A stretch of 64,000 nucleotides of DNA from a virus. The stretch covers positions 1-64,000 of the IMG/VR virus record IMGVR_UViG_3300008262_000201; one strand, given 5' to 3'. The notes beneath the pieces are model-generated. The model did not search any database. It was not told the DNA's origin and saw nothing but the letters and a program-made list of their open reading frames with translations. Shown here one piece after another: positions 2,915-54,444 of this stretch; within the stretch, counting starts at the first letter, position 1, and each line of letters begins with the position of its first letter. The translations under genes and the position numbers were made by a program.

Positions 2915-3191
2915 GCTACGTCGTATAACACTAGCGTTATATCATTCGCTATTTGCGAATGGCGAATAGATTATCCCGAGTAATCGAAGTATTGGCATGT
3001 ATTGGCAATTCTTTGTTGCCAAACAATATTAAGTATTAATACCTACCCATCCCTGGTATGTACCTCTAACTAGTGGGTATGTACCAGGGATATCCTTCAT
3101 TCCTATCTATATCTAGTACACACGTACCAAAAATATCTCCTCTTATACCAAGGGATAGTACACATGTACATGGGGAAGACGGGGGAAACCG
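2915..3191. other. Non-coding control region rich in inverted repeats
   Basis: No gene on either strand. It contains ATTCGC/GCGAAT around TATTT (near 2944), an ATCCCTGGTA ... TACCAGGGAT inverted repeat (about 3050-3092), and several GTAC-centred palindromes (for example GTACACATGTAC near 3160). It leads directly into the iteron element at 3192. A regulatory or replication role is inferred. Confidence 0.5.
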
Positions 3192-3386
3192 TCAATACCA
3201 TCTTATTCAACAGTGAATACAGTCTTATCTAACCCTCTATAGGGTTTCATACTCTTCTAGAAAGCTGTATGGATAAGCTGGTATTCATCCCTTAGGTACC
3301 AGGTTTAATACACTTTTTTAACAACGTATGAAACCCTATATCTAAGATAATAAGACGGTATTCACCCTTCTATAACACGGTATTCA
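3192..3386. repeat. Iteron/inverted-repeat element, copy 1
   Basis: Two 15-bp perfect inverted arms, TATAGGGTTTCATAC (3238-3252) and its complement (3326-3340), are separated by 73 bp. On the left, iterons TCAATAC (3192) and TGAATAC (3214) are 22 bp apart. On the right, GTATTCA (3358 and 3380) are 22 bp apart. A further GGTATTCA sits in the centre at 3280. A second copy with the same spacings is at 37667-37860. Candidate replication origin or protein-loading site. Confidence 0.8.
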
Positions 3387-3401
3387 TCCTTTTACCCATC
3401 C

Positions 3402-3725: not shown

Positions 3726-3977
3726 ATGCTTGTTTCCAAACTGATTGATCAACTACTTAAAGCACAGAACAAATACGGAGACTTTGACATTTGCGTTTGC
3801 GATTCTTCCGAAGCAAACAATGTCGAATCGATTACTGACGGAGTTGAGTTTAACTTTCGTTTGTTTAACGAGAAAACTTATGAAGAATTACCTGGAATTA
3901 GTTTTGAAGAAGAAGAAGAACAAGATGTTGATCACCAAAGTGCTAAGTACTTTGGTGTAATCTTCCGTGACTACTAA
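3726..3977 (+). CDS. Small acidic protein of the 'KLIDQLLKxxxxYGDFDI' type
   Basis: 83 residues. The N-terminal L-I-x-x-L-x-x-x-Q-x-x-Y-G-D-F-D-I-C-V pattern matches a common small phage protein family that begins with a helix followed by 'D..V.V' strands; function unknown. There is a strongly acidic run (SFEEEEEQDVD) near residue 60. It is driven by a family 1 leader. Confidence 0.75.
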   Translation: MLVSKLIDQLLKAQNKYGDFDICVCDSSEANNVESITDGVEFNFRLFNEKTYEELPGISFEEEEEQDVDHQSAKYFGVIFRDY

Positions 3978-3984
3978 TTAATAC

Positions 3985-4012
3985 CTGGGCATCCACATGG
4001 TGTAAGTCCCAG
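3985..4012 (+). promoter_or_regulatory. Leader hairpin, family 1, copy f
   Basis: Short form: CTGGG/CCCAG, CAT opposite TGTAAGT, inner CC-ACAT-GG only. It is 30 nt before the ATG at 4043. Confidence 0.8.
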
Positions 4013-4042
4013 AGTTACACCAACCTCACCTTCAACTCAACC

Positions 4043-4643: not shown

Positions 4644-4837
4644 CTAAGAAATCTCCCATTAGTTTTGATCGCACCATTCATGGTGTGAACATCACTGAAC
4701 ATGGTATCAAGTCAGTAAGTAAACAGATCAAGCTTGGTCCATTCCAACTGACTGTCAACGCCAGTCCCAATGGCGTCAAAGGATCAGTCAGTATCCCTGG
4801 CACAGGCTTGAGCATTCCAAACATTAAGTTAATCTAA
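4640..4837 (+). CDS. DUF4236-like small protein
   Basis: 65 residues. The segment KLGPFQLTVNASPNG...SVSIPGTGLSI resembles the 'LGP...LNLSKSGVSVS.G..G....IPGTGLSY' beta pattern of DUF4236. The short length suggests a single-domain version. Function unknown in the family. It overlaps the preceding gene (ATGA-type junction). Confidence 0.65.
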   Translation: MTKKSPISFDRTIHGVNITEHGIKSVSKQIKLGPFQLTVNASPNGVKGSVSIPGTGLSIPNIKLI

Positions 4838-4868
4838 AGATCTGGGCATCCTTACGGTGTAAGTCCCA
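4825..4868 (+). repeat. 44-bp direct repeat, copy 1, carrying leader hairpin g
   Basis: Identical to 5212-5255. It includes the stop codon of the preceding gene and most of a family 1 hairpin (4842-4868: TGGG/CCCA, CAT opposite TGTAAGT, inner CC-TTAC-GG). In this copy the outer C is opposite C and unpaired. The ATG at 4897 follows 28 nt later. Confidence 0.85.
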
Positions 4869-4896: not shown

Positions 4897-5214
4897 ATGC
4901 CTAAGAAACAAGCACTCAATCCTCACTTCCCTACTGGTCCTAGAACTATTACTCTTGATCTGACTGAAGATCAATGGTGGGCATTGATTAACATGCTCAG
5001 AGCACGCACTGATTTCTATAAGAAGTTGCGGTTTGATCTCATTAGATTAAAGGATGATGGCCTTGAGAAACAAATTGATCAGTACACTGAATCCATGGAA
5101 GACATTGTATCTATATTGGAATCAGTACAAGAACAAGTAGCACCTTTGTATTACACAAAAGCAAAGCGTGCTGAGTGGCGTAAGCAACGTATTGATACAC
5201 CTGATTTCCCATAA
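4897..5214 (+). CDS. Unknown 105-residue helical protein
   Basis: Begins MPKKQALNPHFPTGPRTITLDLTEDQWWALINMLRARTDF. It then appears as a long helical, charge-rich region to the end. No family recognised. It has a family 1 leader and ends inside the second copy of the 44-bp repeat. Confidence 0.75.
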   Translation: MPKKQALNPHFPTGPRTITLDLTEDQWWALINMLRARTDFYKKLRFDLIRLKDDGLEKQIDQYTESMEDIVSILESVQEQVAPLYYTKAKRAEWRKQRIDTPDFP

Positions 5215-5256
5215 GTTAATCTAAAGATCTGGGCATCCTTACGGTGTAAGTCCCAG
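5212..5256 (+). repeat. 44-bp direct repeat, copy 2, with leader hairpin h
   Basis: Repeats 4825-4868 without a mismatch. The hairpin (5229-5256) has the full CTGGG/CCCAG stem. It is 31 nt before the ATG at 5288. The identity implies a recent duplication of the leader element together with its flank. Confidence 0.85.
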
Positions 5257-5287
5257 GTCTTGTCCACCAACTCAATTCAATTCAACC

Positions 5288-6902: not shown

Positions 6903-8642
6903 ATGCAATTCGCTCTGCCTTCCAATCTTCAGACTGAACTCTTGGCTTATGATCCAAAGCTCAAGGCTTTGGCTAAGCAAGCCAACAAACCAGAAGCCAA
7001 GAAACCGACGTATCCACTTGGCAAGATTCCTTGCTTGATACCAACACACATTGTGCGTGAAGCCGATCAGCAAGATGCAATTGCTCAGATCAATCAGCGT
7101 CCAGCACCACAGCGTTATCAAGTCTTTACTACACCTGTAGATGTAGCAACACCACAGGCTAGGCTCAAGGTCATTGCCATCCTGTATCACTACGAACAGG
7201 TGTGGTATGCAGCATGGTTACCTTCTAAGCAAGAGAAGGATCAGTATGTGTACGGTCATGCGTATGCATTCAAGAACACATCAGCTACACAGAAGACTGC
7301 ACCAAATTGGATATGGAATAGCAAAGATGATTGCGTTGTCCACGACATTGGTCGTGGCTCACAACTCTTTGTCTACACCAATACAGCAACCATAGAAGAT
7401 ATCCGCGAAAAAGATTACGATAGCTGGCGTAGTTATCCATGGCGAGCAGGTAACCTTTACTGCCAGAAGGGTTATACAATTCGTGATACTGTTGTTAATG
7501 AATTTGATAACAGCCTGCGGGAAAATCTCCCAACATGGGAAGATTCCCGTGGATTGTTTGATCGCATACGCTGCAAGAATATCTTTGATGCAGCAAACAT
7601 ACCGTCAATGATGTCAAAGCATCTTGATGAAACTCAAGGCTTGACTGTTGATAACTTCATTGCTGCTTCACTTGCATTCAAAGAAGAACACGGCTATAGC
7701 TCATTAACGTATTCTGTTGTCACAAAGATTCAGCACATTGTTACTAAACCTGCCATCAAGAAACTATTGCAAGCAGAGTTAAACCGTAGCATTGATGCAT
7801 ATAATGATCCCAATAACAAACACCAGCAACCTATTAGGCAAGGCTTTGCAACTTTTGTGCAGATCCTTAACTCAATCGAGTGGATTGATTCCATCTGGCC
7901 AGACTGCCCTATTGATTACTATCAGACTTATTTCAAAGAACTTAAGTATCTTCGCTTGACTGAAGTGCGTCTACGCAGTGGGGCTACACAAGAGCCTTGT
8001 TTAATCGACTGGTTACGTGAGCACATGCCTATTGCATCACTGTTTACAATCATGCGTAAGTACTTGGACAAACAACTTACTGAATACAATGGTCGCTGGG
8101 TTGACAGCGATGTTGGGTACCAGCGTCAACGCTTTGGTGAACTCAACGATACATTCTCCATGATGCTTAAGATCCTTCATGTTGGTAATACATTGGAGCC
8201 ACCGAAGCGTTGGCGTCTGACCGAGTTCCATGACTACGTACAATCCGAAGCATGGAAGATCCAGAATCCAAAGGAGTCCCTACGTCAAGATCTATTTCCT
8301 GAACCCATCAAAGTCACACGTCTTGATAGGGTATGGACATTCTTTCAGCCTGTTGACACACATCAACTATCCATGTGGGGGCAAGCCGTACGCAACTGCG
8401 TTGGCTCTGCATCCCACTATGCGGATGACATCAAGAAACGTAAGCACTTCATTGTGTTATGTATGATTGATAACAAGCCCACCTTCACAATTCAATTGGT
8501 TGTGGACCAGGGTATGATGTCAGTCAAGCAGATTGCTGGCGTTGGCAATCGCAGTCTTGACTCAATAGAACGCAACGATTACACGGAAGCCTTCCGTGAG
8601 GTCTTGCAATTGCGTGAATCTGAGCTAAGCTCTAAGAGCTGA
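6903..8642 (+). CDS. PcfJ-domain-like large protein
   Basis: 579 residues. The C-terminal region (about 490-550) carries a PcfJ-like signature: W-G-x-x-V-R-N-C-V-G-S ... ADDIKKRKHFIVLC...KPTFTIQL..., followed by V-K-Q-I-A-G-V-G-N-R. PcfJ domains occur in conjugative elements and phages; their biochemical role is not settled. The ~480-residue N-terminal part has no recognised motif. Start set by the family 2 leader. A hairpin terminator follows at 8655. Confidence 0.8.
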   Translation: MQFALPSNLQTELLAYDPKLKALAKQANKPEAKKPTYPLGKIPCLIPTHIVREADQQDAIAQINQRPAPQRYQVFTTPVDVATPQARLKVIAILYHYEQVWYAAWLPSKQEKDQYVYGHAYAFKNTSATQKTAPNWIWNSKDDCVVHDIGRGSQLFVYTNTATIEDIREKDYDSWRSYPWRAGNLYCQKGYTIRDTVVNEFDNSLRENLPTWEDSRGLFDRIRCKNIFDAANIPSMMSKHLDETQGLTVDNFIAASLAFKEEHGYSSLTYSVVTKIQHIVTKPAIKKLLQAELNRSIDAYNDPNNKHQQPIRQGFATFVQILNSIEWIDSIWPDCPIDYYQTYFKELKYLRLTEVRLRSGATQEPCLIDWLREHMPIASLFTIMRKYLDKQLTEYNGRWVDSDVGYQRQRFGELNDTFSMMLKILHVGNTLEPPKRWRLTEFHDYVQSEAWKIQNPKESLRQDLFPEPIKVTRLDRVWTFFQPVDTHQLSMWGQAVRNCVGSASHYADDIKKRKHFIVLCMIDNKPTFTIQLVVDQGMMSVKQIAGVGNRSLDSIERNDYTEAFREVLQLRESELSSKS

Positions 8643-14567: not shown

Positions 14568-14801
14568 ATGGCTTACATCATTAGTACGTTGGTGGATGGT
14601 GTGCCACACGCCATCCATGCCAATAGTTCCGACTCCAAGTTTGAACTGTTAGCTTTGGATTCTGCTAGTTCACTTAGTAGAATTTACTCCCATCCTTACC
14701 GGGCTGGTGCTTATCAAGTTCTAAGTTGGATCCTGGACAATGAACCCACACTCTCCTGTTATGAGCTCCAGGTTTCCGATGAAGCCCGGTTCCAAAAATG
14801 A
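14568..14801 (+). CDS. Unknown 77-residue protein
   Basis: No family recognised; composition is normal. It overlaps the start of the DNA polymerase gene by up to 62 bp, so the two are probably co-translated. Confidence 0.65.
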   Translation: MAYIISTLVDGVPHAIHANSSDSKFELLALDSASSLSRIYSHPYRAGAYQVLSWILDNEPTLSCYELQVSDEARFQK

Positions 14802-16602
14802 ATCTTGGTTAGTCTTTGATATTGAAACCAATGGCCTCTACGATAAAGTCACGAAAGTTTTTTGTATCGTTATCTACGATATCAACCGAGAAGAAACTTT
14901 TGCTTATGGGCCTGATCGCATTGATGATGCTCTTGCTCATCTGGCAACCGGTGATGTACTCATTGGTCACAATGTGATCTTCTACGACGTACCGGTTCTG
15001 CAAAAACTACATTCATTCAACTGCAAAACACGCATCCTTGACACACTCATCTGCACACGACTCATTTGGCCCAAAGAAAAACTCTACGACCTTGACGTAC
15101 AACTCTATCCGGAAGTTCCGAAGAACTACCGCGGGATGGCCGGTCTTAAAGCCTGGGGTTACCGCCTCTCCGATAACAAGATTGAGTTCAAAGATTTCTC
15201 GGAGTACTCAGAAGAAATGCTTGTCTATTGCAAGCAAGACGTCTCGGTTACTTCAAAACTTTGGAGGCATATCGCCAACCAAGGCTATCCAGAACAAGCT
15301 CTCAAACTTGAACACGACTTTGCTCTTGCCATTAATAAACAAATTAGAGCAGGTGTTTCTTTTGATGTGGATGCAGCTATTGATCTTGTGGATAATCTCC
15401 GAGCAAGAGAAGCACAGCTTGAAACGGAACTAAAAGAAATCTTTCCGCCAATCGAACATCGTAATTGGTTTACTCCTAAGGTCAACAATAAAAATCGTGG
15501 CTATGTCAAAGGAGTACCTTTTGAAAAAATCCATTACGAAGAATTCAATCCTGGATCTCGTGATCAAATTGCTGATCGACTCAAGGCTAAGTACGGATGG
15601 CAACCAGAAAAGACAACTGAAAAAGGAAATCCAATCCTTAATGATGAAGTGTTAGAGGCATTGCCTTATCCAGAAGCCAAGCCTCTGGCAGAATACATGC
15701 TCATCAAGAAACGCCTTGGTCAAATTGCAGATGGCAACAACGCTTGGCTCAAGCTGGTTAATAATGACAGCAGTCGTATGCACGGTGACGTTGTTACTAA
15801 CGGCTGCGTCACTGGTCGTTGTGCTCACCGATACCCAAATATGGGTCAGGTTCCAGCAGGCTATTCGCCATACGGCAAAGAATGTCGGTCATTATTTCAT
15901 GCACCACAAGGATGGGACATGATTGGTATCGATGCCAAAGCATTGGAGCTACGATGTCTTGCTGGTTACCTTGCCATCTATGACGGTGGTGAGTATGCAC
16001 GTGTGGTCACGGATCCAACAATTGACATTCACGTGTACAACCAAGAGCGTTTTGGTGTTGCTACCAGGGACATCAGTAAGCGTTTACTGTATGCCGTGTT
16101 GTATGGCGCTGGTCACCTTAAGGCTGGCAGCATTGTGGATCCGAATGAAAAAGATGAAGAAGTTCTGCGTAAACTAGGAAGAACTGCAATTAATTCATTC
16201 ATGGCTGAGGTGCCAGCCTTGAAAGAACTTAAGGAACGTATTGAATCTCAGATTGCAAACAATGATTGTCTCATTGGATTAGATCGCCGTATTCTTTATT
16301 GCCGTTCGGCATTCAAAGGATTGAATGTTTTATTACAATCAGCAGGCGCAATCCTCATGAAGCAAGTTGTTATTAACATTCATGACAACATTGAGTCTGC
16401 CCTCAGTCTGCCCCATGGGGCAGAGTGGGAACAAGTCTTGATGGTTCATGACGAAGTGCAACTGGTTTGTAGTCCCAAATACACTGAACAGATCAGAGCC
16501 CAAGCATTGGCAGCTTTTCCACAAGCACAGCAATTCTTTGGATTCCTCTGTGACATTGAGGGAGATTCTCGTGTAGGATCCAACTGGAGCCAAACGCACT
16601 GA
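14740..16602 (+). CDS. Family A DNA polymerase (T7-like) with 3'-5' exonuclease
   Basis: 620 residues; the replicative polymerase. Exonuclease: LVFDIETNG (D27, E29), GHNVIFYD (D83), YCKQD (D167). Polymerase: motif A GIDAKALELR (D398), motif B RDISKRLLYAVLYG (R443, K447, Y451, Y455), motif C VHDE (H570-E572). Layout and length match T7 gp5 without a longer insertion. Y451 occupies the position corresponding to T7 Tyr526, the tyrosine type associated with virulent phages. Start: ATG 14740, or 14779 (MKPGSKNESW). It sits beside SSB and other replication genes. Confidence 0.97.
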   Translation: MNPHSPVMSSRFPMKPGSKNESWLVFDIETNGLYDKVTKVFCIVIYDINREETFAYGPDRIDDALAHLATGDVLIGHNVIFYDVPVLQKLHSFNCKTRILDTLICTRLIWPKEKLYDLDVQLYPEVPKNYRGMAGLKAWGYRLSDNKIEFKDFSEYSEEMLVYCKQDVSVTSKLWRHIANQGYPEQALKLEHDFALAINKQIRAGVSFDVDAAIDLVDNLRAREAQLETELKEIFPPIEHRNWFTPKVNNKNRGYVKGVPFEKIHYEEFNPGSRDQIADRLKAKYGWQPEKTTEKGNPILNDEVLEALPYPEAKPLAEYMLIKKRLGQIADGNNAWLKLVNNDSSRMHGDVVTNGCVTGRCAHRYPNMGQVPAGYSPYGKECRSLFHAPQGWDMIGIDAKALELRCLAGYLAIYDGGEYARVVTDPTIDIHVYNQERFGVATRDISKRLLYAVLYGAGHLKAGSIVDPNEKDEEVLRKLGRTAINSFMAEVPALKELKERIESQIANNDCLIGLDRRILYCRSAFKGLNVLLQSAGAILMKQVVINIHDNIESALSLPHGAEWEQVLMVHDEVQLVCSPKYTEQIRAQALAAFPQAQQFFGFLCDIEGDSRVGSNWSQTH

Positions 16603-28605: not shown

Positions 28606-28607
28606 AT

Positions 28608-28677
28608 CGGGATGGAAGGTACTGCCCCTTCTCCTTTGCGTCCCAAACGCAATGTGATACTTTTCTACTACATCCCG
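28608..28677 (-). tRNA. tRNA-Pro-like (anticodon UGG) with aberrant T loop
   Basis: Acceptor CGGGATG/CATCCCG, anticodon stem TTGCG/CGCAA with loop TTTGGGA (anticodon TGG) and T stem GAAGG/CCTTC are present. The T loop is GGCAGTA instead of the usual TTC-containing loop, and the D stem is weak. It lies 2 nt from the neighbouring tRNA-like gene. Confidence 0.65.
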
Positions 28678-33156: not shown

Positions 33157-33342
33157 ATGAGCACCCACGTCATCGGCGTGGGCGAATGGATGCATACCCT
33201 TGTTAGCCGCATGGCCAATGCGGCGGATGGGGATTTGTTTTGTCTTCCAACGCCTATGCATTTACATGCTTACAACTTGGTAAAAGACGATCAATATCCC
33301 GATCGCAGCTTTAGAATCTCTCTTACCTACCCAACGAAATGA
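33157..33342 (+). CDS. Unknown 61-residue protein
   Basis: MSTHVIGVGEWMHTLVSRMA then an aromatic C-terminus (LHAYNLVKDDQYPDRSFRIS). The stop overlaps the primase ATG. No family recognised. Confidence 0.6.
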   Translation: MSTHVIGVGEWMHTLVSRMANAADGDLFCLPTPMHLHAYNLVKDDQYPDRSFRISLTYPTK

Positions 33343-35972
33343 CGCCGAGTATGAACCAGCAGGCAGTAAAACCGGGCGAAATTCGGCTCGATCTCATTCC
33401 CATTGACTGGCCCTTGACCCCACTGGGTCCCAACAAAGATCCTTACGTCATGGGATGGCAGAACAAACCGTTTACTAAAGAAGAAATTGAAAATGAAATT
33501 ATCAACGGAGAATGTAAAGCTATCGGATTACTTGGTGGTCCTGCCTACAACCATCCTTATGGTCTCGTTTGGGTTGATGTTGACGGACCATCCGTCTATG
33601 AACTCATCGAACAGATTTCCAACCTCCCAATACTCGATGCATTGCCGCCCACCCTTACCATCCTCAGTGGCAAAGCAGGCCGAGAGCGTCGCCTCTACAA
33701 AGTAAGTAAAGAAAAACAAAAGCATTTCATTCGTAACAAATACACATGGACCTCGCAGGGGTCCATGGAAAAACTTGAGATCTTGTGGAAGCGGCACCAA
33801 GGCGTATTGATGGGTGCGCATCCAGATACGCAAGGTTATTTCACTGCCGAAGGTTTGGGATTTGAATGGGCAGACAAATTACCTGAACTTCCGGATTGGG
33901 TATTGAATGGCATCATTACCAGGAATGCAAAGCAAGGGCGTCCTGCTGAAGAAGTCTCACGCATCATCGGTAACTCGTTCGCAATCACCAGTCGCATTGG
34001 ATTGGAACGGGATATGCAATTGGCAGTTGCTGCGATGTGGGCACTCCCCATTGAGGCAGTCGATGACTATGACATTTGGATTGCGATCGGACAGTCGCTC
34101 CATGAGTTGGATGAATCCCTGCTTGATCAATGGGATGAATGGTCCAAACAAAGTGACAAATACAAAGAGAACGAATGCCATAAGCGTTGGTTATCCTTTA
34201 CAAAAGGTGGTGGCCGGGGCATTGGTACGCTTTACCATCTGGCTGAGCAGAATGGATGGAAGCGTCCGCAGGAAGACAAGGTTTCTTCCCCTGACGATGC
34301 TACGATCAATCTGGCGGCAAGCATTCTTCCCGAAATCGAAAGAAATGTGGAAGAAGAAATGAATCGCCTTCTCAACACTGCAACTCCAACCGACACAACT
34401 CTAATGAACACCGAAGATTATGGCGATGATGTACAACCTAAAAGCGCCAAGAAGAATAAAGAGAAGGAACTCAGGCAACCTAAGAATGAAGTTGCGGACA
34501 AACTACTTGGAATCTATGCAAACAATCTGCTCTTTAGTCTCCCGCACAATCAATTCTTTATGTATGACCCTAGCCAAGGTCTGTGGAGCAAAGTAAGCAA
34601 GATTGAAATGCTTGGTGATATCCGTTCCAAGCTACAAGCTCTTATTACTAGTGGTTGGTTACGCGAAGGGTTTAGCTTTCAAATGCTTGATGATATGTTC
34701 AAGCAACTGCAAGCAATGGTCCCGTGTGATAAATGGCACGAGGCAACAGATGTTCTGCTATTCACCAACGGTGTACTTGACGTCACAACAAAGGAACTGC
34801 GGCCATTTGACCGTAATTTGCATATGACGCAACAGATGCCATATGCCTATAACCCTCAAGCAACCTGCGAACCAATCATTGATTGGCTTCGTTACACGCA
34901 GCATGGTTCTGAAAAACGTACGCAAGTTCTTCGTGCATGGCTACGGGCAACTCTTCTTGGTCGCCACGAGCTTCAAAAGTTTCTTGAGTTGGTTGGTCCT
35001 GGTAAATCTGGTAAATCCACTTATGCAAACCTATGTGTTGCACTGGTAGGTAAACGTAACGTCTGCTCCACAGAGCTAGAACAGATTGAGAAGAACCGAT
35101 TTGAAACTGCAAGTTTCATGGGTAAGAAAATCATTCTGTTCCAAGACTCTGACCGTTATGGTGGCAGTGTTTCAAAACTAAAAGCCATTACTGGTGGTGA
35201 CTGGATTCGTTCTGAGTTCAAATACCAAGCAGATCAACTGGAGCCTTTCCAGTTCCAGGGTGTTGTCATCATTACTGCTAACGAAGCAATTCAGTCCACC
35301 GACTACACCTCAGGTCTTGCCCGTCGCCGCCTTACTATTCCGTTCGACCGTCCTTTTACTGGTGGGCAAGAGCAACAACGTACCTTAATGGGTTTCGATA
35401 GTAAGGGTACTCCTGAAGGAGATTTTGCACCTTTGCTTCCAGGGCTTGTCAACTGGATCCTGGCTATGTCTGAGTCGGAAATGCGTGACTACTTGATGGA
35501 GACATCAAAGCACGTTGATTTCTTCCAGGCTTATGAGAAGGATCAAGCCATTCGTTCCAATCCGATTTTGGATTGGCTGGATAAACGCGTTATCTTTGTG
35601 CCAGGGGCGGAAGTTGCTATGGGTATGTGTAAACCTTCACCAGGGGGTGTCAATTACTATGTCGACTGGACCACGCAGGTGTATCCGTCTTACGCAGAGC
35701 ATTGTCGTAGTGCCAATGTTGGTGTATCGGGGCGTTCTCGCTTTGAGGTCCTACTTATGGACATCTGTAAAAACCAACTGAAACTAAATGTCTACGCAAC
35801 CAAAAAAACCAATGGGTTGGTAATTCACAACATCTTGATACGTGATGGTGTCAGGGATGACTACAAGTGTTACCCCTCCATCCTGGAAGTAGCTGCAGAC
35901 CCCGCCAAATACAAAGAAATGTACGGTGTTAACCCTGCGATAATGGAGGAATACATTGCGACAAACCATTGA
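33339..35972 (+). CDS. Primase-helicase (prim-pol, PriCT-2-like, D5_N/SF3 helicase)
   Basis: 877 residues. N-terminal prim-pol-type domain with GLVWVDVDG (D80, D82) and an RERRLYKVS segment. Middle PriCT-2-like region (about 225-315: YDIWIAIGQSLHEL ... TLYHLAEQNGW). SF3 helicase at about 553-660: Walker A GPGKSGKST, Walker B KKIILFQDSD, motif C VVIITAN, arginine region ARRRLTIPF. Makes primers and unwinds at the fork; works with the polymerase and SSB. The ATG overlaps the preceding stop; the stop overlaps the TTG of speD. Confidence 0.93.
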   Translation: MTPSMNQQAVKPGEIRLDLIPIDWPLTPLGPNKDPYVMGWQNKPFTKEEIENEIINGECKAIGLLGGPAYNHPYGLVWVDVDGPSVYELIEQISNLPILDALPPTLTILSGKAGRERRLYKVSKEKQKHFIRNKYTWTSQGSMEKLEILWKRHQGVLMGAHPDTQGYFTAEGLGFEWADKLPELPDWVLNGIITRNAKQGRPAEEVSRIIGNSFAITSRIGLERDMQLAVAAMWALPIEAVDDYDIWIAIGQSLHELDESLLDQWDEWSKQSDKYKENECHKRWLSFTKGGGRGIGTLYHLAEQNGWKRPQEDKVSSPDDATINLAASILPEIERNVEEEMNRLLNTATPTDTTLMNTEDYGDDVQPKSAKKNKEKELRQPKNEVADKLLGIYANNLLFSLPHNQFFMYDPSQGLWSKVSKIEMLGDIRSKLQALITSGWLREGFSFQMLDDMFKQLQAMVPCDKWHEATDVLLFTNGVLDVTTKELRPFDRNLHMTQQMPYAYNPQATCEPIIDWLRYTQHGSEKRTQVLRAWLRATLLGRHELQKFLELVGPGKSGKSTYANLCVALVGKRNVCSTELEQIEKNRFETASFMGKKIILFQDSDRYGGSVSKLKAITGGDWIRSEFKYQADQLEPFQFQGVVIITANEAIQSTDYTSGLARRRLTIPFDRPFTGGQEQQRTLMGFDSKGTPEGDFAPLLPGLVNWILAMSESEMRDYLMETSKHVDFFQAYEKDQAIRSNPILDWLDKRVIFVPGAEVAMGMCKPSPGGVNYYVDWTTQVYPSYAEHCRSANVGVSGRSRFEVLLMDICKNQLKLNVYATKKTNGLVIHNILIRDGVRDDYKCYPSILEVAADPAKYKEMYGVNPAIMEEYIATNH

Positions 35973-36331
35973 GCAACGGTCGTCATCTGATCCTTGACCT
36001 TTATGGTTGTGATCAAAACCTTTTAGATAACTATGAGGAGCTCCAGCGTTTGCTGGAAGCTTCTCTTGTTTTGGCGGGAGCAAATATCTTACGTATCTTT
36101 GGTGAGAAATTTGAACCGCAAGGCGTTACCTTGTTGGCACTATTGTCTGAATCCCACGCATCTATCCACACGTGGCCAGAAGTAGGGTATGCGGCAGTTG
36201 ATCTATACACCTGTGGTGATACCACGCTCACACATCGGGCTGCAGAATTTTTGAAATCAAAACTCAAGGCAACAACAGCGGAAGAAAAAGAGCTTGTGCG
36301 ATCAATTGAACCTCTTGATTGTGTAGAGTAA
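35969..36331 (+). CDS. speD: S-adenosylmethionine decarboxylase proenzyme
   Basis: 120 residues; makes decarboxylated SAM for spermidine synthesis. Matches the short prokaryotic class: GRHLILDLYGCD (4-15), then LLSESHASIHTWPE (58-71) where the chain is cut before S62 to create the pyruvoyl cofactor, H67 and C82 (YTCGD). The start codon is TTG (35969) inside the primase stop. Known as an auxiliary gene in marine cyanophages. Polyamine may aid DNA packaging or host metabolism. Confidence 0.94.
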   Translation: MSNGRHLILDLYGCDQNLLDNYEELQRLLEASLVLAGANILRIFGEKFEPQGVTLLALLSESHASIHTWPEVGYAAVDLYTCGDTTLTHRAAEFLKSKLKATTAEEKELVRSIEPLDCVE

Positions 36332-36351
36332 ATCGGAATTATTCCGATCTA

Positions 36352-37614
36352 ATGACTAAGAAAGCAAAACTTTTGTGGTGTGGTGACATCGTTGCCATGA
36401 CCGGCTTTGCACGTGTAACTGAAAATGTTATCTCTCGTCTGAAAGACGACTTTGAAATTGTTGTTCTTGGTAACAACTGGTGGGGTGATCCAACGCCACT
36501 TCAGCAGGAGTACAAGATGTACCCGTCATCTAACCGTCATCAGACCGCACCTTTTGGTGAGCAACGCATTCGTGAGATCGTTGAACGTGAACAACCCGAC
36601 GTGGTATTTACGATCAATGATATGTGGATTATTAATGAGCAATACAATCAAATTAAGGATCTGCACAAGGCTGGCAAGTTTAAATTTGTTGGCTATGCAC
36701 CCATGGATTCGTATGCATGGACAGGTTGCTTAGCGGATACTGCCAATGAATGGGACGCTGTGGTCTCGTACACAGAATTTGGTGCACACGAATTTATGGC
36801 TGGTGGTATCACCAGGCCTATCTCTATTATTCCGCATGGTGTGACTCCTGGTCAGTTCTATCCAGTAGATAAGGCAGAGGCACGCCGCAAGCTGGGACTT
36901 AAAGAAGATAGCTTCATTGTTTTCAATGGTAACCGCAATCAATTCCGCAAACGGATTGACATCACAATCAAAGCATTTGCTGCGTTTGCGGTAGATAAAC
37001 CTAATGCAATGCTTTACCTGCACATGGGGCTCAAGGACCAGGGCTGGGACATCATGGAGGTGTTTGCACGTGAGATGACACGTGTGGGTCTTGATCCAAA
37101 TGGACGCATCATTATGACGTCAAATCAACCCAGTCCTCCGAATGTATCGGTGGAAATGCTGAATGACATCTATAACGCATGTGATGTTGGTGTCAATACG
37201 TGTAAAGGTGAGGGCTGGGGTCTTGTCAACTTTGAACACGCTGCCTGTGGTGTGCCGCAGGTAGTGCCCGACCATACGTCATGCAAAGAGATCTTCGAGG
37301 GCTACGGCGAACTGATCCGTTGCGACCACATCGATGTGGATACCAACTACGCACGTGAGATGCCATGCCCTTCCTCTGATCACCTTGCTGAGATCTTGAC
37401 GTACCTGTACCAAGACAAAGGCATTCGTGAATGGGTTGGTACACGCTGCCGAGAACGAGTACTGGATCCGCAGTTCTCATGGGACACAGTTGCGTCTCAA
37501 TTTGGTGGCATCTTTGAGGAGGTGTTGTCCCAAGAACCTGAACCTGTGGCAAAACCTAAAGAAAAACGGAAGGAACGAAAGGATCGTACGAAGACCCGGA
37601 AGCTTGGTAAGTGA
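36352..37614 (+). CDS. GT4-type glycosyltransferase
   Basis: 420 residues from ATG 36352 (upstream in-frame 36319 would overlap speD). GT-B fold: N-terminal LLWCGDIVAMTGFARVTENV, C-terminal FNGNRNQFRKRIDITIKAF and the E-x7-E type region KGEGWGLVNFEHAACGVPQV. It transfers a sugar from an NDP donor; the acceptor (DNA, glycan, host surface) cannot be told. An ATCGGAAT/ATTCCGAT hairpin lies 2-20 nt before the ATG. Confidence 0.88.
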   Translation: MTKKAKLLWCGDIVAMTGFARVTENVISRLKDDFEIVVLGNNWWGDPTPLQQEYKMYPSSNRHQTAPFGEQRIREIVEREQPDVVFTINDMWIINEQYNQIKDLHKAGKFKFVGYAPMDSYAWTGCLADTANEWDAVVSYTEFGAHEFMAGGITRPISIIPHGVTPGQFYPVDKAEARRKLGLKEDSFIVFNGNRNQFRKRIDITIKAFAAFAVDKPNAMLYLHMGLKDQGWDIMEVFAREMTRVGLDPNGRIIMTSNQPSPPNVSVEMLNDIYNACDVGVNTCKGEGWGLVNFEHAACGVPQVVPDHTSCKEIFEGYGELIRCDHIDVDTNYAREMPCPSSDHLAEILTYLYQDKGIREWVGTRCRERVLDPQFSWDTVASQFGGIFEEVLSQEPEPVAKPKEKRKERKDRTKTRKLGK

Positions 37615-37666
37615 CGTTTGATGGTACGTATGTACTGTGGAGAACGTACGGAGATGGGTAAAACAA

Positions 37667-37860
37667 TGAATACCGTCCTATTCAAGGATGAATACAGTCT
37701 TATCTAACCCTCTATAGGGTTTCATACGTTGTTAAAACAGTGTTGCATTTGTGGAAAAAATCATGAAGCCACACAGAGGTGCAACACTTTTTCAACACAG
37801 TATGAAACCCTATATCTAAGTAAATAAGGCGGTATTCACCCCTCCACAAGCCGGTATTCA
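37667..37860. repeat. Iteron/inverted-repeat element, copy 2
   Basis: Same plan as 3192-3386: arms TATAGGGTTTCATAC (37713-37727) and complement (37800-37814), 72 bp apart; TGAATAC at 37667 and 37689 (22 bp apart) and GTATTCA at 37832 and 37854 (22 bp apart). The loop sequence is mostly different from copy 1, whereas arms and iterons are kept, and AAGTGTTGC-type extensions of the arms are also shared. Upstream flank (GTAC-rich, GGAGATGGG) also resembles copy 1. Confidence 0.8.
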
Positions 37861-37924
37861 CAGTTTCTCTTGCGTACACTTCCCAACAGTGGTACAGTGT
37901 CATGGTCCCCACTACCAGGAGGTC

Positions 37925-38353
37925 ATGGCACGCACCTACCTAGAGATGCTTCCGCTTTGGTACGTACAGGACCAGCTAGAGCTCTCTGACCAATACGCGA
38001 CAGGTCTTGCGTGGAAGACGCAAGCACGTGGTCACAAGCCCGGTGACATAGCTGGCCGGCAGCATGGCAAGTACTGTTACGTTTCTCTTTGCGGCGCACG
38101 GTACCAAGCGCATCGCATCGTGTACTACTTACGTACTGGTAGCGATCCAGGGAACGCAGACGTCGTTCACGACCCCTCCAACGTCACGTACGACAACCGT
38201 CAGGAGCTAGCCCTCAAACAACGCCGCACCCGTCCTGCGCCTTCATACCGACGCCGCACACGTAACGCCGAAGGAGAGCTGGTCTACAACCTGGAGAACG
38301 GCATGTCCTTCCACAAGTACCAACGCCTTATCGGCAACCCACTCAGTTCTTAA
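37925..38353 (+). CDS. Degenerate HNH-like protein
   Basis: 142 residues from ATG 37925 (37889 in frame is possible). YQAHRIVYYLRTGSDPGNAD then VVHDPSNVTYDNRQELALKQ copies the 'aHRivy.l..G..p.g..VdHiD.n..dNR.eNL' layout but lacks the canonical first HH/DH pair (VVHD). The C-terminal half is Arg-rich. Directly follows iteron element copy 2. Confidence 0.65.
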   Translation: MARTYLEMLPLWYVQDQLELSDQYATGLAWKTQARGHKPGDIAGRQHGKYCYVSLCGARYQAHRIVYYLRTGSDPGNADVVHDPSNVTYDNRQELALKQRRTRPAPSYRRRTRNAEGELVYNLENGMSFHKYQRLIGNPLSS

Positions 38354-38355
38354 TC

Positions 38356-39075
38356 ATGGCCAACTACACCAAACGCATCAACGAACTGGCTTCTGTACTG
38401 TCGCCTTTCCGGTACGTTGCCAACATTGAGTTACTTACGGATGCACAGTTAAGTGCACATGGTTATTACAGGGGATTTATATGCCCCCATGGGCATACCA
38501 TTCGTGACAAGACATATCACTGGTGTTACGAATGTGTTCGTAAAATTTCCAATAACAACTGTGGTTTTGACATCAACTATATTGATGGCTTGTACAAACA
38601 TCGCCTGCTATCCATCTGGAGCAAGATACCTGTAAAGGATTTTGAAGAGTGCTGGGAAGCACCTGCGTTAACAAAAGCGCGCATTCGTTTCCCTTCCTAT
38701 CGTTCTGCTAACAGTAAAAACCTAGCTGAAAACATCAGTGCACATAAAGTCATTTATCAATGTGCATGGGGAGATGTTGGCAAGATGGTTGTAACACGTA
38801 CGTGCCGCAATAAAGATTGTCTTAATCCTTTGCATATGATTTCAAGTTGGAATCGCACTTTCCCACCCGTTGAGATCCAACCGTTCCATCACACGTTTGA
38901 CCCCAGCAAATTAATGCACGCTGCAGATAACCAGCTAAAAGAAACACCTGAACCCATTATGAAAGCCAAGTACAAACAAACGATTCAACATCCGTTGGTG
39001 AACAAAAACACCCCGGATTATGATGATACACAGGAGCTGTATTACGGTTCATATGCCCAGGAATTCAGTAGTTAG
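38356..39075 (+). CDS. HNH-type nuclease with extra zinc site
   Basis: 239 residues. N-terminal FICPHGH...YHWCYECV gives a zinc knuckle (about 41-61). C-terminal (about 128-168) AHKVIYQCAWGDVGKMVVTR followed by TCRNKDCLNPLHMI matches the HNH_3 pattern with C-x-N-x-x-C-x-N-P-x-H. Probably a site-specific or homing nuclease. It follows 2 nt after the previous HNH-like gene. Confidence 0.75.
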   Translation: MANYTKRINELASVLSPFRYVANIELLTDAQLSAHGYYRGFICPHGHTIRDKTYHWCYECVRKISNNNCGFDINYIDGLYKHRLLSIWSKIPVKDFEECWEAPALTKARIRFPSYRSANSKNLAENISAHKVIYQCAWGDVGKMVVTRTCRNKDCLNPLHMISSWNRTFPPVEIQPFHHTFDPSKLMHAADNQLKETPEPIMKAKYKQTIQHPLVNKNTPDYDDTQELYYGSYAQEFSS

Positions 39076-42452: not shown

Positions 42453-43820
42453 TTAGATGCCTGCCGCAGTTAAACGACCTTCCAAATCTTCGATCTTCTG
42501 GAGAGCTTCCTGCAGCGCAGCGGTCAGCAGGGGCACCAGTTTGGATTGGTCAATGCCTTGGTAGACCGGGTTGCCGTCGTCGTCCACTTCATCTTTGGTG
42601 CCAGTGGCACACTCAGGAACAATTTCCTGCGCTTCGTGAGCGATAAAGCCGTCAACGATCTTGTCTAGATCGGCAATAAAGTTAAACTGACTGGGCTTCA
42701 GTTTGTTAATGCGATCAATTGCACCCCTTAATGGAACCACATTTTCCTTTAGCCGGTAGTCGGACGACGTCGCGTATGTTGTAGCCGTTGTGGTAATGCT
42801 AACTGTTCCAACCGGAGTTCCACTAGTGCCGTTTGGGTTGGATGTATGGAAAAATGCCAGAACATTGCTGCCATTCCTGGAAATGCTTAACGCTCCTGCT
42901 GATGACGTTGCTTCTATTCCATACCAACCGGTTGAGTTTGTTGCGGCCGTACTGGTTGTCATCAAGACGTCTTGGGTGTTCTTAATGACCATTGCCTGCG
43001 TCGGGCTGCTCGCTCCGTCGGCGGTAGTGGAGAACACTAAACGGCCCGGCATGTCGTTAGCGCCGGGGGTGCCGTCTACGACAGCTTCTATGGTTGCGCC
43101 CGATTTGTCTGCGCTTCCATCAAAACCATTAAACGTAAGACCGCTGAGATAATCTCCGTTTTGGACTATGGACGAACCACGTATTTTTGAGAAAGCAATC
43201 CCGCAGTTGGCATTGCTGTTCGAATTATTTGTAAGGTGAATTGAACCTTGCTGATAATCACCCAGCGCCTGAATTGAAGGCGTTCCGTAGACTGCTGTGC
43301 TACGCGCAGAAGACGTGCCAACTAACAACCTGCCGGAGCTGTCGATGCGGGCGCGTTCTCCTGCTGATGTAGTGAAAGAAAATGCTCCAGAGCCAGAACC
43401 AATATTGAAATCGTATCTTGTTCCGCTGTCAAAGTTATTTGCAATATCTAGATTATAACCATTCAGCCCATTTAGCCTAAACAAGCTGGCGCCTGTGCTT
43501 TCAAAGACGTTTAATCTAGTTGCAGGACTCGTAGTGCCAATCCCTACGTTGCCTGTGTTGGATACATGCAGTCGCGTTGTAGTATTAACAACATCAACAA
43601 TTTGGAAACTTCCGTCGCTTGCGTTATAACGATTATACCATTTGAGAGCATTATCTTCAGCGTAAGCGAGCGTTGTATTTGTACCGGCAGCAGAATTAAG
43701 GTGCAATAAAGTTTGTGGGCTACTGGTCCCCAGACCTAAGCGGCCACTGGAGTCCAGGCGCATGCGCTCGGCGCCACCTGCGCCAAACTGCATACTTTCA
43801 GAGCCAACTGCAGTGAGCAC
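42453..43820 (-). CDS. Tail fibre C-terminal part with S74 chaperone
   Basis: 455 residues from GTG 43820. Repeated L-D-S-S-G-R-L-x-x-G-T-S-S and GNVGIGTTSPATRLNV units, then the intramolecular chaperone/auto-protease (Peptidase S74): SSDYRLKENV at about 352 with the autocleavage S-D, and a coiled C-terminus (LEGRLTAAGI). Its start overlaps the end of the 43736 gene in another frame; the two look like one fibre gene broken by a frameshift. Recognises the host surface. Confidence 0.85.
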   Translation of the reverse strand: MLTAVGSESMQFGAGGAERMRLDSSGRLGLGTSSPQTLLHLNSAAGTNTTLAYAEDNALKWYNRYNASDGSFQIVDVVNTTTRLHVSNTGNVGIGTTSPATRLNVFESTGASLFRLNGLNGYNLDIANNFDSGTRYDFNIGSGSGAFSFTTSAGERARIDSSGRLLVGTSSARSTAVYGTPSIQALGDYQQGSIHLTNNSNSNANCGIAFSKIRGSSIVQNGDYLSGLTFNGFDGSADKSGATIEAVVDGTPGANDMPGRLVFSTTADGASSPTQAMVIKNTQDVLMTTSTAATNSTGWYGIEATSSAGALSISRNGSNVLAFFHTSNPNGTSGTPVGTVSITTTATTYATSSDYRLKENVVPLRGAIDRINKLKPSQFNFIADLDKIVDGFIAHEAQEIVPECATGTKDEVDDDGNPVYQGIDQSKLVPLLTAALQEALQKIEDLEGRLTAAGI

Positions 43821-51609: not shown

Positions 51610-54444
51610 TTAGTACTTAGGTGTCAGGCCTTTAAAGGCACTGGTAAAACTGCCAAGAAAACCTTGGCCTGACTTTGATTTTGCAGTTACTGTATCTTCG
51701 GTATCATCGTCGTCATACAAACTGAAATAAGACTTATCTTCTGAAGAAGAGCTTGTTTTCTTTTTAGTTTCTTTAGGTGCTTTCTCATCGGCAGACAACG
51801 TTTCAATTGCTCCAAGAGCTTCGAATGGATCGCTGTTACTTAATTTACTAAACACACTACCTTCTTTAAACCCTTTACCAGCTTGTGTTAAAAGTTCCAT
51901 GTCTTCTCGGTTTACATCCGGCATAAATTCTTTGTAAAAATCATCCTCTGTTCCAGAAAACCCCGCGTTTTTGAACACGTTATAGAGTTCAGTTTCATTT
52001 GGGTTAGTACGCGCCGCAGTGTCTTCAAGACGTTCAATATAGTCTACGCCAAGTTTTTCTTGTGTTACTTTTTCTTTCTTCTCGTTTAGATATTTAATTG
52101 CCTCACGTATCTTTGTTGCTTCTCCCGTTTGGAATGCTTCCTGAATATACTCCTTGACTTCTTCAATTCCCATTTCTTTGCCAGAAAGACCCATGGACTC
52201 AAGTACCTTTTCCCATTCGGCCTTGTTTTTTGTTGGGTCAATTCCCTCTAGCATTTTGTCCGCATACTCTTTAGGCGTAACAAAGTTTAAAAATGACGCG
52301 CTACCTAAATTTACTTTTTCATTTGCAATAGCCGGAAGAATGCTGTCGTCAATAAATGACTGTGCCGCATCTAATGATAACTTATCACGCGCTGGGTCAA
52401 AACCTTGGTGCATTCCATATACTTGGTAATGTAGCTTTGCAAATTGTGATTTATCATTCACGTTATAACCATATAAGTATGCTAACTGGTTCCAGGTGGC
52501 TGGAGGATTGCTCCCTGGCACGACCTGTTCACCATTCTTTTTTGCTGTTTCCCAATCTTCATTTACTTTTGCTGCTTGTGCAGTATGCTTTTCAATACTT
52601 ACATCTCCTCCTGAAGGATTAAAATAAAATTCAGAATCAAAACCAGAATCTCCAGATGATTTAACGGTGTTTAACCATTGTTGAGCACGAAGATCTGCCA
52701 GGTTTTTCAAAGAACTTAATGCGCTTTGTGTTTGAAAAATGTTTTCTTCTCCTTGTGTTACATCCATGTAGCTCATAAACTCTGACATGGAACGAGATGC
52801 GTTAAACCGTGGGGTTAAATAGCGTTTAACATAGTCGTCTGCAAATTCCTTGTCTGCTACATATTGTTTAGAAGCATCTTGCCAGTCCGAAAAAGTAGCG
52901 CCTTCTTCGTATCGTTTTGTCAAGGTTTCATCAAACCATTTTTGCCAGTTGTAAATTGTATTTGACCTGGAAGGAATTCCAGTAACAGCAGAGAATTGTT
53001 TCTCTAAACTCTCTTCTGCTTTTTCTTGGTTTTGTCCTCCTAAAGAAAGAATACCGCCTACGCCTGTGTCTCCCAAGAGCGAATTAGAGAGCTCTTGGTT
53101 CATGTTAAAGATTTCACTAAAACCTGGCAAACCACTATAAAAATCAAACTGTTGCTCCTTGGCACGTTGCTTCTTGTATTCTTTTAACGTCTCATTAAAT
53201 GTATCAACGGTTAAAGATCTAAATTTGTCTGCTGCTTCTTGTTCTTTTGGCCCAAGTACTTTACTCAATTTACCTTCGAGTATCGTATCTCCTCGTGACA
53301 TTTTGACTTGGGACCGAATATCTTCTGGCAGTTGTGTAATAGAAGGAATTGCTAAATAGCCACTTGCACGATCTGCAGCATCTGCTGGAGACAACGAAGA
53401 AATCCATTGCCTCAAAACCTCAGGATCCTGTGCAGCTTCCCATTCTTTTAAATTACTGTAAGAGCCAAGGCCCATGACCTGATCGCGATACAGTTGATAC
53501 TGCGCATCAGTCATTGGGGTTTCTTTGTATCCTTCAGCTTGTTCAGCTTTGGTAACTGCATTACCCCGTTCAGTTTTACCGTTTACAACTGCATAGTTGT
53601 ACTGTAAAAAAGTATCTTGGTCATACCTCCCAACTAATGAAACATCTTCGTATAGCTGTCCGCCAATGTTAATATTGCCATTAAGCGCTTCATTCCATTT
53701 ATTAAACGCTTCTTGTCCTTGACCAGTTGTCATGTAATACGCGGGATCAAACGCACCCATTGGCGGTTGATATGCTTTATTACTTGTGGGGTCCCATTTG
53801 GAAACTTTTCCGTAATAGGCATTAACAAGATTTTGCGTTACGCCAGTGTTGCTTAAGATACTTGCTTCCGTTCCGCCCAGGTTGTTTAAAGCAGTTGCAA
53901 TTGATTTGAAATCAGTTCCGTCGCTCTTGTTGTATCTATTGGCAAAATCAGTAAACGTTTTTCTTGCGGCTTCTCCCACGGCATTAGTGTTTACAGCGAT
54001 GCTTCCATCGGGATTAATTTTAAATTGAGCGCCCCCTGGTAGAATCCGATATTCTTTATTTCCGCCACGTTTTTCCCAATGGTCGTAGCCAAAACCTTCT
54101 TGGGCGGTTTCATTGGTAATGGGTTTTCCACTGCCGTCTTGATATACGGGTAGTGTTGTATATCCGCCACGTCCTCCTGAGCCTGGTGCATCTGGCAAAC
54201 CATTTGTGTTTATAACTTTTGGCGTTAAACGTCCTTCGTTTTTACCACTGTTTTGATAATGGTTGTACCCCCAATCCCATTTTGAAATTCCAGTTCTTCT
54301 ATTCTCTGCTTGCCAGGCTTGGCTTAGATCTGACGCTGCATCAACATACTGAGACCAATGAATATTGCTTCTGTCATTCAACCAACTATTGTAATTCTGT
54401 GCAATATCAGAATACGAAGAAACGTACTTATCAAAAACGCCCAT
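51610..54444 (-). CDS. Very large virion protein
   Basis: 944 residues from ATG 54444 (overlaps the HNH stop, TAATG). Repeated 'WDWGYNHYQNSGKNEGR'-type units (also FGYDHWEKRGGNKEYRI, LHYQVYGMHQGFDP) near the N-terminus and centre; these HYxxxGxxEG repeats are known in cyanophage virion proteins. The rest is helical. No enzymatic motif and no long hydrophobic segment. Possibly tail or ejection protein. Confidence 0.7.
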   Translation of the reverse strand: MGVFDKYVSSYSDIAQNYNSWLNDRSNIHWSQYVDAASDLSQAWQAENRRTGISKWDWGYNHYQNSGKNEGRLTPKVINTNGLPDAPGSGGRGGYTTLPVYQDGSGKPITNETAQEGFGYDHWEKRGGNKEYRILPGGAQFKINPDGSIAVNTNAVGEAARKTFTDFANRYNKSDGTDFKSIATALNNLGGTEASILSNTGVTQNLVNAYYGKVSKWDPTSNKAYQPPMGAFDPAYYMTTGQGQEAFNKWNEALNGNINIGGQLYEDVSLVGRYDQDTFLQYNYAVVNGKTERGNAVTKAEQAEGYKETPMTDAQYQLYRDQVMGLGSYSNLKEWEAAQDPEVLRQWISSLSPADAADRASGYLAIPSITQLPEDIRSQVKMSRGDTILEGKLSKVLGPKEQEAADKFRSLTVDTFNETLKEYKKQRAKEQQFDFYSGLPGFSEIFNMNQELSNSLLGDTGVGGILSLGGQNQEKAEESLEKQFSAVTGIPSRSNTIYNWQKWFDETLTKRYEEGATFSDWQDASKQYVADKEFADDYVKRYLTPRFNASRSMSEFMSYMDVTQGEENIFQTQSALSSLKNLADLRAQQWLNTVKSSGDSGFDSEFYFNPSGGDVSIEKHTAQAAKVNEDWETAKKNGEQVVPGSNPPATWNQLAYLYGYNVNDKSQFAKLHYQVYGMHQGFDPARDKLSLDAAQSFIDDSILPAIANEKVNLGSASFLNFVTPKEYADKMLEGIDPTKNKAEWEKVLESMGLSGKEMGIEEVKEYIQEAFQTGEATKIREAIKYLNEKKEKVTQEKLGVDYIERLEDTAARTNPNETELYNVFKNAGFSGTEDDFYKEFMPDVNREDMELLTQAGKGFKEGSVFSKLSNSDPFEALGAIETLSADEKAPKETKKKTSSSSEDKSYFSLYDDDDTEDTVTAKSKSGQGFLGSFTSAFKGLTPKY

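Follow-up and report, generated by a model that had tools for sequence, protein, structure and literature searches.

A conserved inverted-repeat element downstream of the PrimPol-helicase gene as the probable replication origin of S-EIV1-like cyanophages

The DNA analysed here comes from a freshwater cyanophage; the stretch of 64,000 nucleotides, which we call the window, belongs to a virus record 64,223 bases long. On its plus strand, the gene for a PrimPol-helicase (33339–35972), the proposed initiator, is followed by speD, which encodes an S-adenosylmethionine decarboxylase (35969–36331; Pfam AdoMet_dc), and by a glycosyltransferase gene (36319–37614; Pfam/PHROG). Roughly 50 bp past the end of the latter begins a large imperfect dyad that we term copy 2, and beyond it lie two further plus-strand genes, HNH-A (37889–38353), directly after the dyad, and HNH-B (38356–39075). 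HNH-B matches phrog_1872 (8e-11) and displays conserved Cys pairs and an NPxH...N motif in the alignment. HNH-A matches phrog_99 (1.2e-9); the original prediction had taken this gene to be degenerate, but it is an open reading frame of 154 amino acids, and many relatives carry homologues at the equivalent position. The phage also encodes a family A polymerase (14740–16602).

The PrimPol-helicase carries the Pfam domains Prim-Pol, PriCT_2, D5_N and DUF5906, along with a predicted C-terminal winged helix. An AlphaFold2 model of moderate quality (mean pLDDT 75.4, pTM 0.48) places a C-terminal helix-helix-strand-strand unit at residues 781–834 that would be winged-helix-like. Among solved structures, sequence comparison ranks the SaPI5 primase-helicase first (E 2e-19), and the nearest by fold are AsfvPrimPol, SaPI5 and poxvirus D5. 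The primase shares 52% identity with its counterpart in Synechococcus phage S-EIV1, in which the order primase, speD, glycosyltransferase is the same. Elsewhere in the window, pieces at 42996–43358 match, at ~95% identity, the tail fibre gene of an otherwise unrelated phage, Synechococcus phage S-CBP4, and bear the marks of a recent exchange. A 31-nt repeat (CGTCCTGG..ATGACG...) occurs in five copies that are 74–90% alike (6498, 6853, 16609, 17919 and 21297), possibly as a shared control signal, and a second tRNA gene on the minus strand (28607–28677) was found by Rfam and missed by ARAGORN.

Copy 2 (37661–37866) is a near-palindrome of 206 bp with 87-nt arms at 37661–37747 and 37780–37866 that are 75% complementary and separated by 32 nt. 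The left arm contains a plus-strand iteron pair (TGAATACC... and TGAATACA...; 37667–37705) with GAATAC at 37668 and 37690, and the right arm holds an inverted pair on the minus strand (37831–37860; GGTATTCA at 37831 and 37853) with the complement of GAATAC at 37832 and 37854, the step being 22 bp on both sides. A perfect 15-bp inner stem, formed on the plus strand by TATAGGGTTTCATAC at 37713–37727 and GTATGAAACCCTATA at 37800–37814, encloses a 72-nt loop (37728–37799) with a smaller stem of its own (GTGTTGCA/TGCAACAC) and one CACTT, the complement of AAGTG, at 37785. As single-stranded DNA, copy 2 folds with an energy of −44.1 kcal/mol, where shuffled sequences average −15.4 (z −9.7), and none of 200 shuffles equals it. 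The two copies of the element, with scores of 43 and 25, are the highest-ranking dyads in the window, and the next scores 15. The arm ends in CTATAGGG, which resembles T7 promoters. A phage RNA-polymerase promoter was rejected as a reading of this end: the sequence is not kept in relatives, and no phage RNA polymerase was present among the proteins scanned, a subset of the ORFs.

Copy 1 (3186–3400) lies between convergent ORFs with no adjoining HNH gene, and its single-stranded fold is likewise unmatched by shuffles (z −6.8; 0 of 200 fold equally well). The original prediction had placed a second copy at 37667–37860, 34.5 kb from the first and downstream of the primase, speD and glycosyltransferase genes, and we find it there. 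Its further claim that arms, iterons and spacings are the same in both holds in part. The arms are 86% identical over 76–77 nt on each side, two direct-repeat families are common to both copies and four iteron positions match, one of them as CAATACC; the inner stem of copy 1, however, encloses 73 nt rather than 72, an extra iteron sits in its loop at 3281 and the two loops are unrelated in sequence. A second similar dyad occurs in only three of 14 long contigs, all of the window type (the window, G020 and G021). Both ORFs bordering copy 1 occur in the relative G022 (98.7% and 78.7% identical), where they stand 134 bp apart as opposed to 488 bp and have no copy between them. Comparison of both copies and their flanks in related phages, as the prediction had proposed, finds the copy 2 site conserved and copy 1 missing from G022, and it reverses the order implied by the numbering: the 'second' copy is the ancestral, family-wide site, with copy 1 a later, lineage-specific addition. 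Near copy 1, a GGTGTAAGTCCCA motif is repeated between small ORFs (3686, 3968–4030, 4825–4868 and 5212–5274), and a similar motif is also found in the G022 gap that lacks copy 1.

The conservation of the site was assessed among primase relatives from two scans, the second of which confirmed 243 and kept 80; these 80, five from the first scan and S-EIV1 make up the 86 loci analysed. Counts were made over the 84 loci whose downstream sequence extends for 3 kb or more, which left out L182 and L184. In the 4 kb that follow the primase gene, the best dyad scores at least 18 in 62 of the 84 loci, a score reached by none of 252 dinucleotide shuffles and by none of 65 upstream 4-kb control windows; the remaining 22 loci have no dyad of that score in the same span. 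With the cut-off lowered to 16, 70 of 84 loci qualify against 9 of 252 shuffles. When the search interval runs from +0.3 to +4 kb, 63 of 86 loci qualify, of which 44 are non-redundant. The distance from primase gene to dyad is usually ~1.4–3.7 kb, with speD and the glycosyltransferase gene between. In 60 of the 63 loci the dyad starts 49–294 bp past the glycosyltransferase match; it precedes that gene in two and follows it by 663 bp in one. An HNH-A or HNH-B gene lies on the same strand within 400 bp after the dyad in all 63. Although the S-EIV1 dyad (7830–7968 of KJ410740) scores only 17, it outranks every other dyad of that genome and occupies the same place, and the dyad is also the top-scoring one of whole long contigs, S-EIV1 included. 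Arms reach 109 nt in relatives, and the sequence of the element turns over almost completely while its structure is kept.

Several features of individual loci accompany this pattern. HNH-A and HNH-B follow the dyad in strict order, and HNH-B is present in nearly every locus with room for it; such near-ubiquity is not typical of homing endonucleases, which suggests that the gene has a core function. The glycosyltransferase gene has moved in L153, L174, L164 and L165, where HNH-B lies between speD and the glycosyltransferase gene, and in L153 and L174 the dyad too lies between speD and the relocated gene. In the IMG/VR contig G005 (47641–47953; loci L046 and L061), one arm is doubled on the same side, which allows two possible pairings. 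A GC-skew extremum falls within 0.5 kb of the element in three of 14 long contigs (G022, G028 and G030; all maxima, with four extrema per contig) and elsewhere in 11; as evidence for an origin, skew is weak and inconsistent among these contigs, and we set it aside. DNA-fold z-scores computed over the gaps with 12 shuffles were noisy, falling below −3 at 7 of 22 weak-dyad loci and at 5 of 37 controls, and carry no weight here.

The two arms of the dyad co-vary, keeping their pairing while the sequence changes. Among the eight related elements of set A6, 27 of 61 pairs show changes in both partners and pairing holds in 78.6% of cells, and among the nine elements of set A4 the values are 35 of 84 and 75.5%, where the reference structure for each set comes from one of its members, a choice that somewhat favours the observed pairing. 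Sliding the partner by 1–3 columns leaves at most 10 such pairs and 46% pairing in A6, and the slid control for A4 gives at most 18 and 48%. None of 500 shuffles reaches the observed counts for A6, and none of 500 the observed pair count for A4. The arm nearer the primase gene is richer in G+C in 36 of the 44 non-redundant elements and poorer in four.

Two short motifs recur in these elements. Enumeration of all words, with expectations drawn from the rest of the same loci, ranks AAAGTGT as the top 7-mer in the 44 non-redundant elements (61 seen against 0.96 expected), and TGAGAC is found 49 times against 5.5 expected. Both had been spotted by eye earlier, before the iteron of the helicase Cch2 was known to us from the paper describing it. 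AAGTG is present in 30 of the 44 elements. The window copies are atypical in that each has one CACTT and no TGAGAC, the repeated unit being GAATAC. At the 22 loci without a strong dyad, the densest cluster of AAAGTG or TGAGAC still falls at the site in 16. GTG, considered as a primase start signal, is barely enriched (302 against 263 expected) and was discarded.

A comparable arrangement is known from the archaeal plasmid pRN1, in which a 100-bp stem-loop with a 58-bp loop lies 3′ of the PrimPol-helicase gene and its deletion abolishes replication (Berkner et al. 2014, PMC4234260; Joshua et al. 2013, PMC3869888). The stem-loop remains functional when moved, its sequence is not conserved among relatives, and the authors also point out a stem-loop 3′ of the BIP-1/BPP-1 protein (PMC4234260, PMC3869888). 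For the pRN1 protein the authors detected no specific binding, and GTG point mutations did not stop replication (PMC4234260). Our dyad scan recovers the BPP-1 stem-loop (score 32, +517 from the gene). Paenibacillus phage LincolnB has a dyad of score 20 situated 118 bp after the gene, and among six distant primase/SF3 phages a dyad lies just 3′ of the gene in two; of the other four, the L237 record has only 52 bp downstream. The window phage shares with pRN1 and BIP-1/BPP-1 a PrimPol joined to an SF3 helicase and a C-terminal winged helix, here predicted, with a large stem 3′ of the gene; as in pRN1, structure is conserved without conservation of sequence, and as in BIP-1/BPP-1, PriCT_2 replaces the pRN1 helical domain. 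The phage elements differ from pRN1, which is described as lacking iterons, in having arms of up to 109 nt with internal repeated motifs, and also in that speD and the glycosyltransferase gene usually intervene between gene and dyad, that HNH genes follow and that one lineage has a second copy.

Staphylococcal elements offer a second parallel. SaPI origins lie downstream of rep, and the SCC helicase Cch2 requires AAGTG iterons just downstream of its own gene (PMC7581432). The likeness comprises a self-loading D5-type helicase, a putative origin downstream of its gene and short repeated sites, and the AAGTG iteron of Cch2 is contained in AAAGTGT, the top motif of the phage elements. In that system, however, Cch2 binding did not need inverted repeats, whereas the dyad is the conserved feature here, and the repeats of the window are GAATAC and not AAGTG.

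Phage P4, with ori and crr, has a primase-helicase initiator with a winged helix, iterons and two separate cis sites; PMC4234260 gives a partial description of this system. The initiator (its winged helix being predicted in our case), the iterons and the two separate sites have counterparts in the phages studied here, the last in window-type phages only. The P4 primase is of the Toprim type, and its two sites lie a few kb apart and are not known to be large dyads; the window phage differs in having a Prim-Pol and a distance of 34.5 kb.

The origin function raised in the original prediction gains support from the recurrence of the dyad at the same place in relatives, and other readings of the site have to be weighed against it. 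Linkage to the HNH genes is as tight as that to the primase gene, and the element could serve the HNH operon. A regulatory role, as operator, promoter, terminator or leader in the interval from the primase-speD-glycosyltransferase genes to the HNH genes, would fit the same-strand HNH gene that closely follows every dyad, as well as the terminator-like minus-strand matches, of which there are two, one inside the element, where 0.3 would be expected. We consider such a role unlikely: no sigma-70-like promoter was found in the region, arms of up to 109 nt far exceed the needs of a terminator or operator, copy 1 has convergent ORFs and no HNH gene beside it, and wobble pairs are not in excess on the sense strand. 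A search for intrinsic terminators, defined as a short GC-rich stem followed by a T run, returned none on the sense strand and one weak minus-strand match inside the element. The long co-varying helix would also suit a structured RNA (a UTR element or small RNA), a reading that we regard as highly improbable. The 670 dyad mismatches on the sense strand comprise 124 G.T, 167 A.C and 379 of neither kind, and because G.T mismatches are not favoured over A.C, the counts give no indication that a sense RNA is under selection. At gathering thresholds, two tRNAs are the only Rfam matches in the window.

In some cos phages, terminases are aided by HNH proteins, and the strict HNH linkage could point to a site for packaging (pac/cos) or recombination at which the adjacent HNH proteins cut; this is very unlikely given that the annotated terminase gene of S-EIV1 starts at 54080 and its dyad lies at 7830–7968, and that the dyad is tightly linked to the primase gene as well. 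Two copies in one genome and the absence of copy 1 from a relative might instead recall a mobile, MITE-like repeat, an explanation already largely refuted and with almost negligible probability. The original prediction had judged mobility less likely, seeing no terminal duplication, and both points are borne out: no target-site duplication is present, the longest exact direct repeat bounding copy 2 being 5 bp and none of at least 5 bp bounding copy 1. The exact arm pattern occurs in 20 stretches of viral contigs, 18 with the full element and two without it; the two-arm pattern yields the same 18 matches, spread over 14 contigs, and both copies are present in four of these. All 18 come from close relatives and the same two kinds of site. 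The wide spread through unrelated genomes, with target-site duplications, that a transposon would lead one to expect is not seen, with 0 matches to the element pattern in a set of 84,980 species genomes and no DNA similar to the element in the phage collection. A further reading, which we judge quite unlikely, is that the element is an extruded DNA hairpin read by its shape and that the adjacent HNH-B is a nickase that opens it; arms recognised by shape would therefore be free to change sequence while staying paired. If true, initiation would have two parts, a PrimPol-helicase and an origin-specific HNH nickase, and we have met no such description for pRN1, SaPI or P4.

Copy 2 is most likely a replication origin, a pRN1-type stem-loop with iteron-like arms as in SaPI, SCC and P4; it is by analogy with these systems that initiation would take place here. 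Taken as a whole, the best explanation, and one that we hold to be probable, is that copy 2 is an origin worked by the upstream PrimPol-helicase and that copy 1 is a later duplicate. The C-terminal winged helix would bind inverted iterons or AAAGTG-type sites in both arms, and the protein probably loads as two hexamers facing each other. It would then melt the dyad at its centre, more readily if hairpins extrude from the arms, and on the strands so exposed the Prim-Pol/PriCT_2 half would make the first primers for the family A polymerase of the phage. Copy 1, keeping the binding arms around a new loop, may act as a second origin or as an accessory site akin to P4 crr.

The principle of a stem-loop origin worked by a PrimPol-helicase is already published. 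Among the papers that our literature search reached, we found no account of its extension to S-EIV1-like phages, of modular AAAGTG/TGAGAC arms, of the HNH linkage or of a duplicated site, and on S-EIV1 origins nothing besides PMC4234260. Genetics has demonstrated a stem-loop origin beside a PrimPol-helicase in the case of an archaeal plasmid, and for a few phages of Bordetella one has merely been suggested. The arrangement now recurs in dozens of contigs from cyanophages, where the arms co-vary, two motifs are shared and a natural duplication is present, and the family has an isolated representative in S-EIV1. This makes the question of structure versus sequence in such origins directly testable, and it suggests a way of finding origins in uncultured phages independently of sequence.
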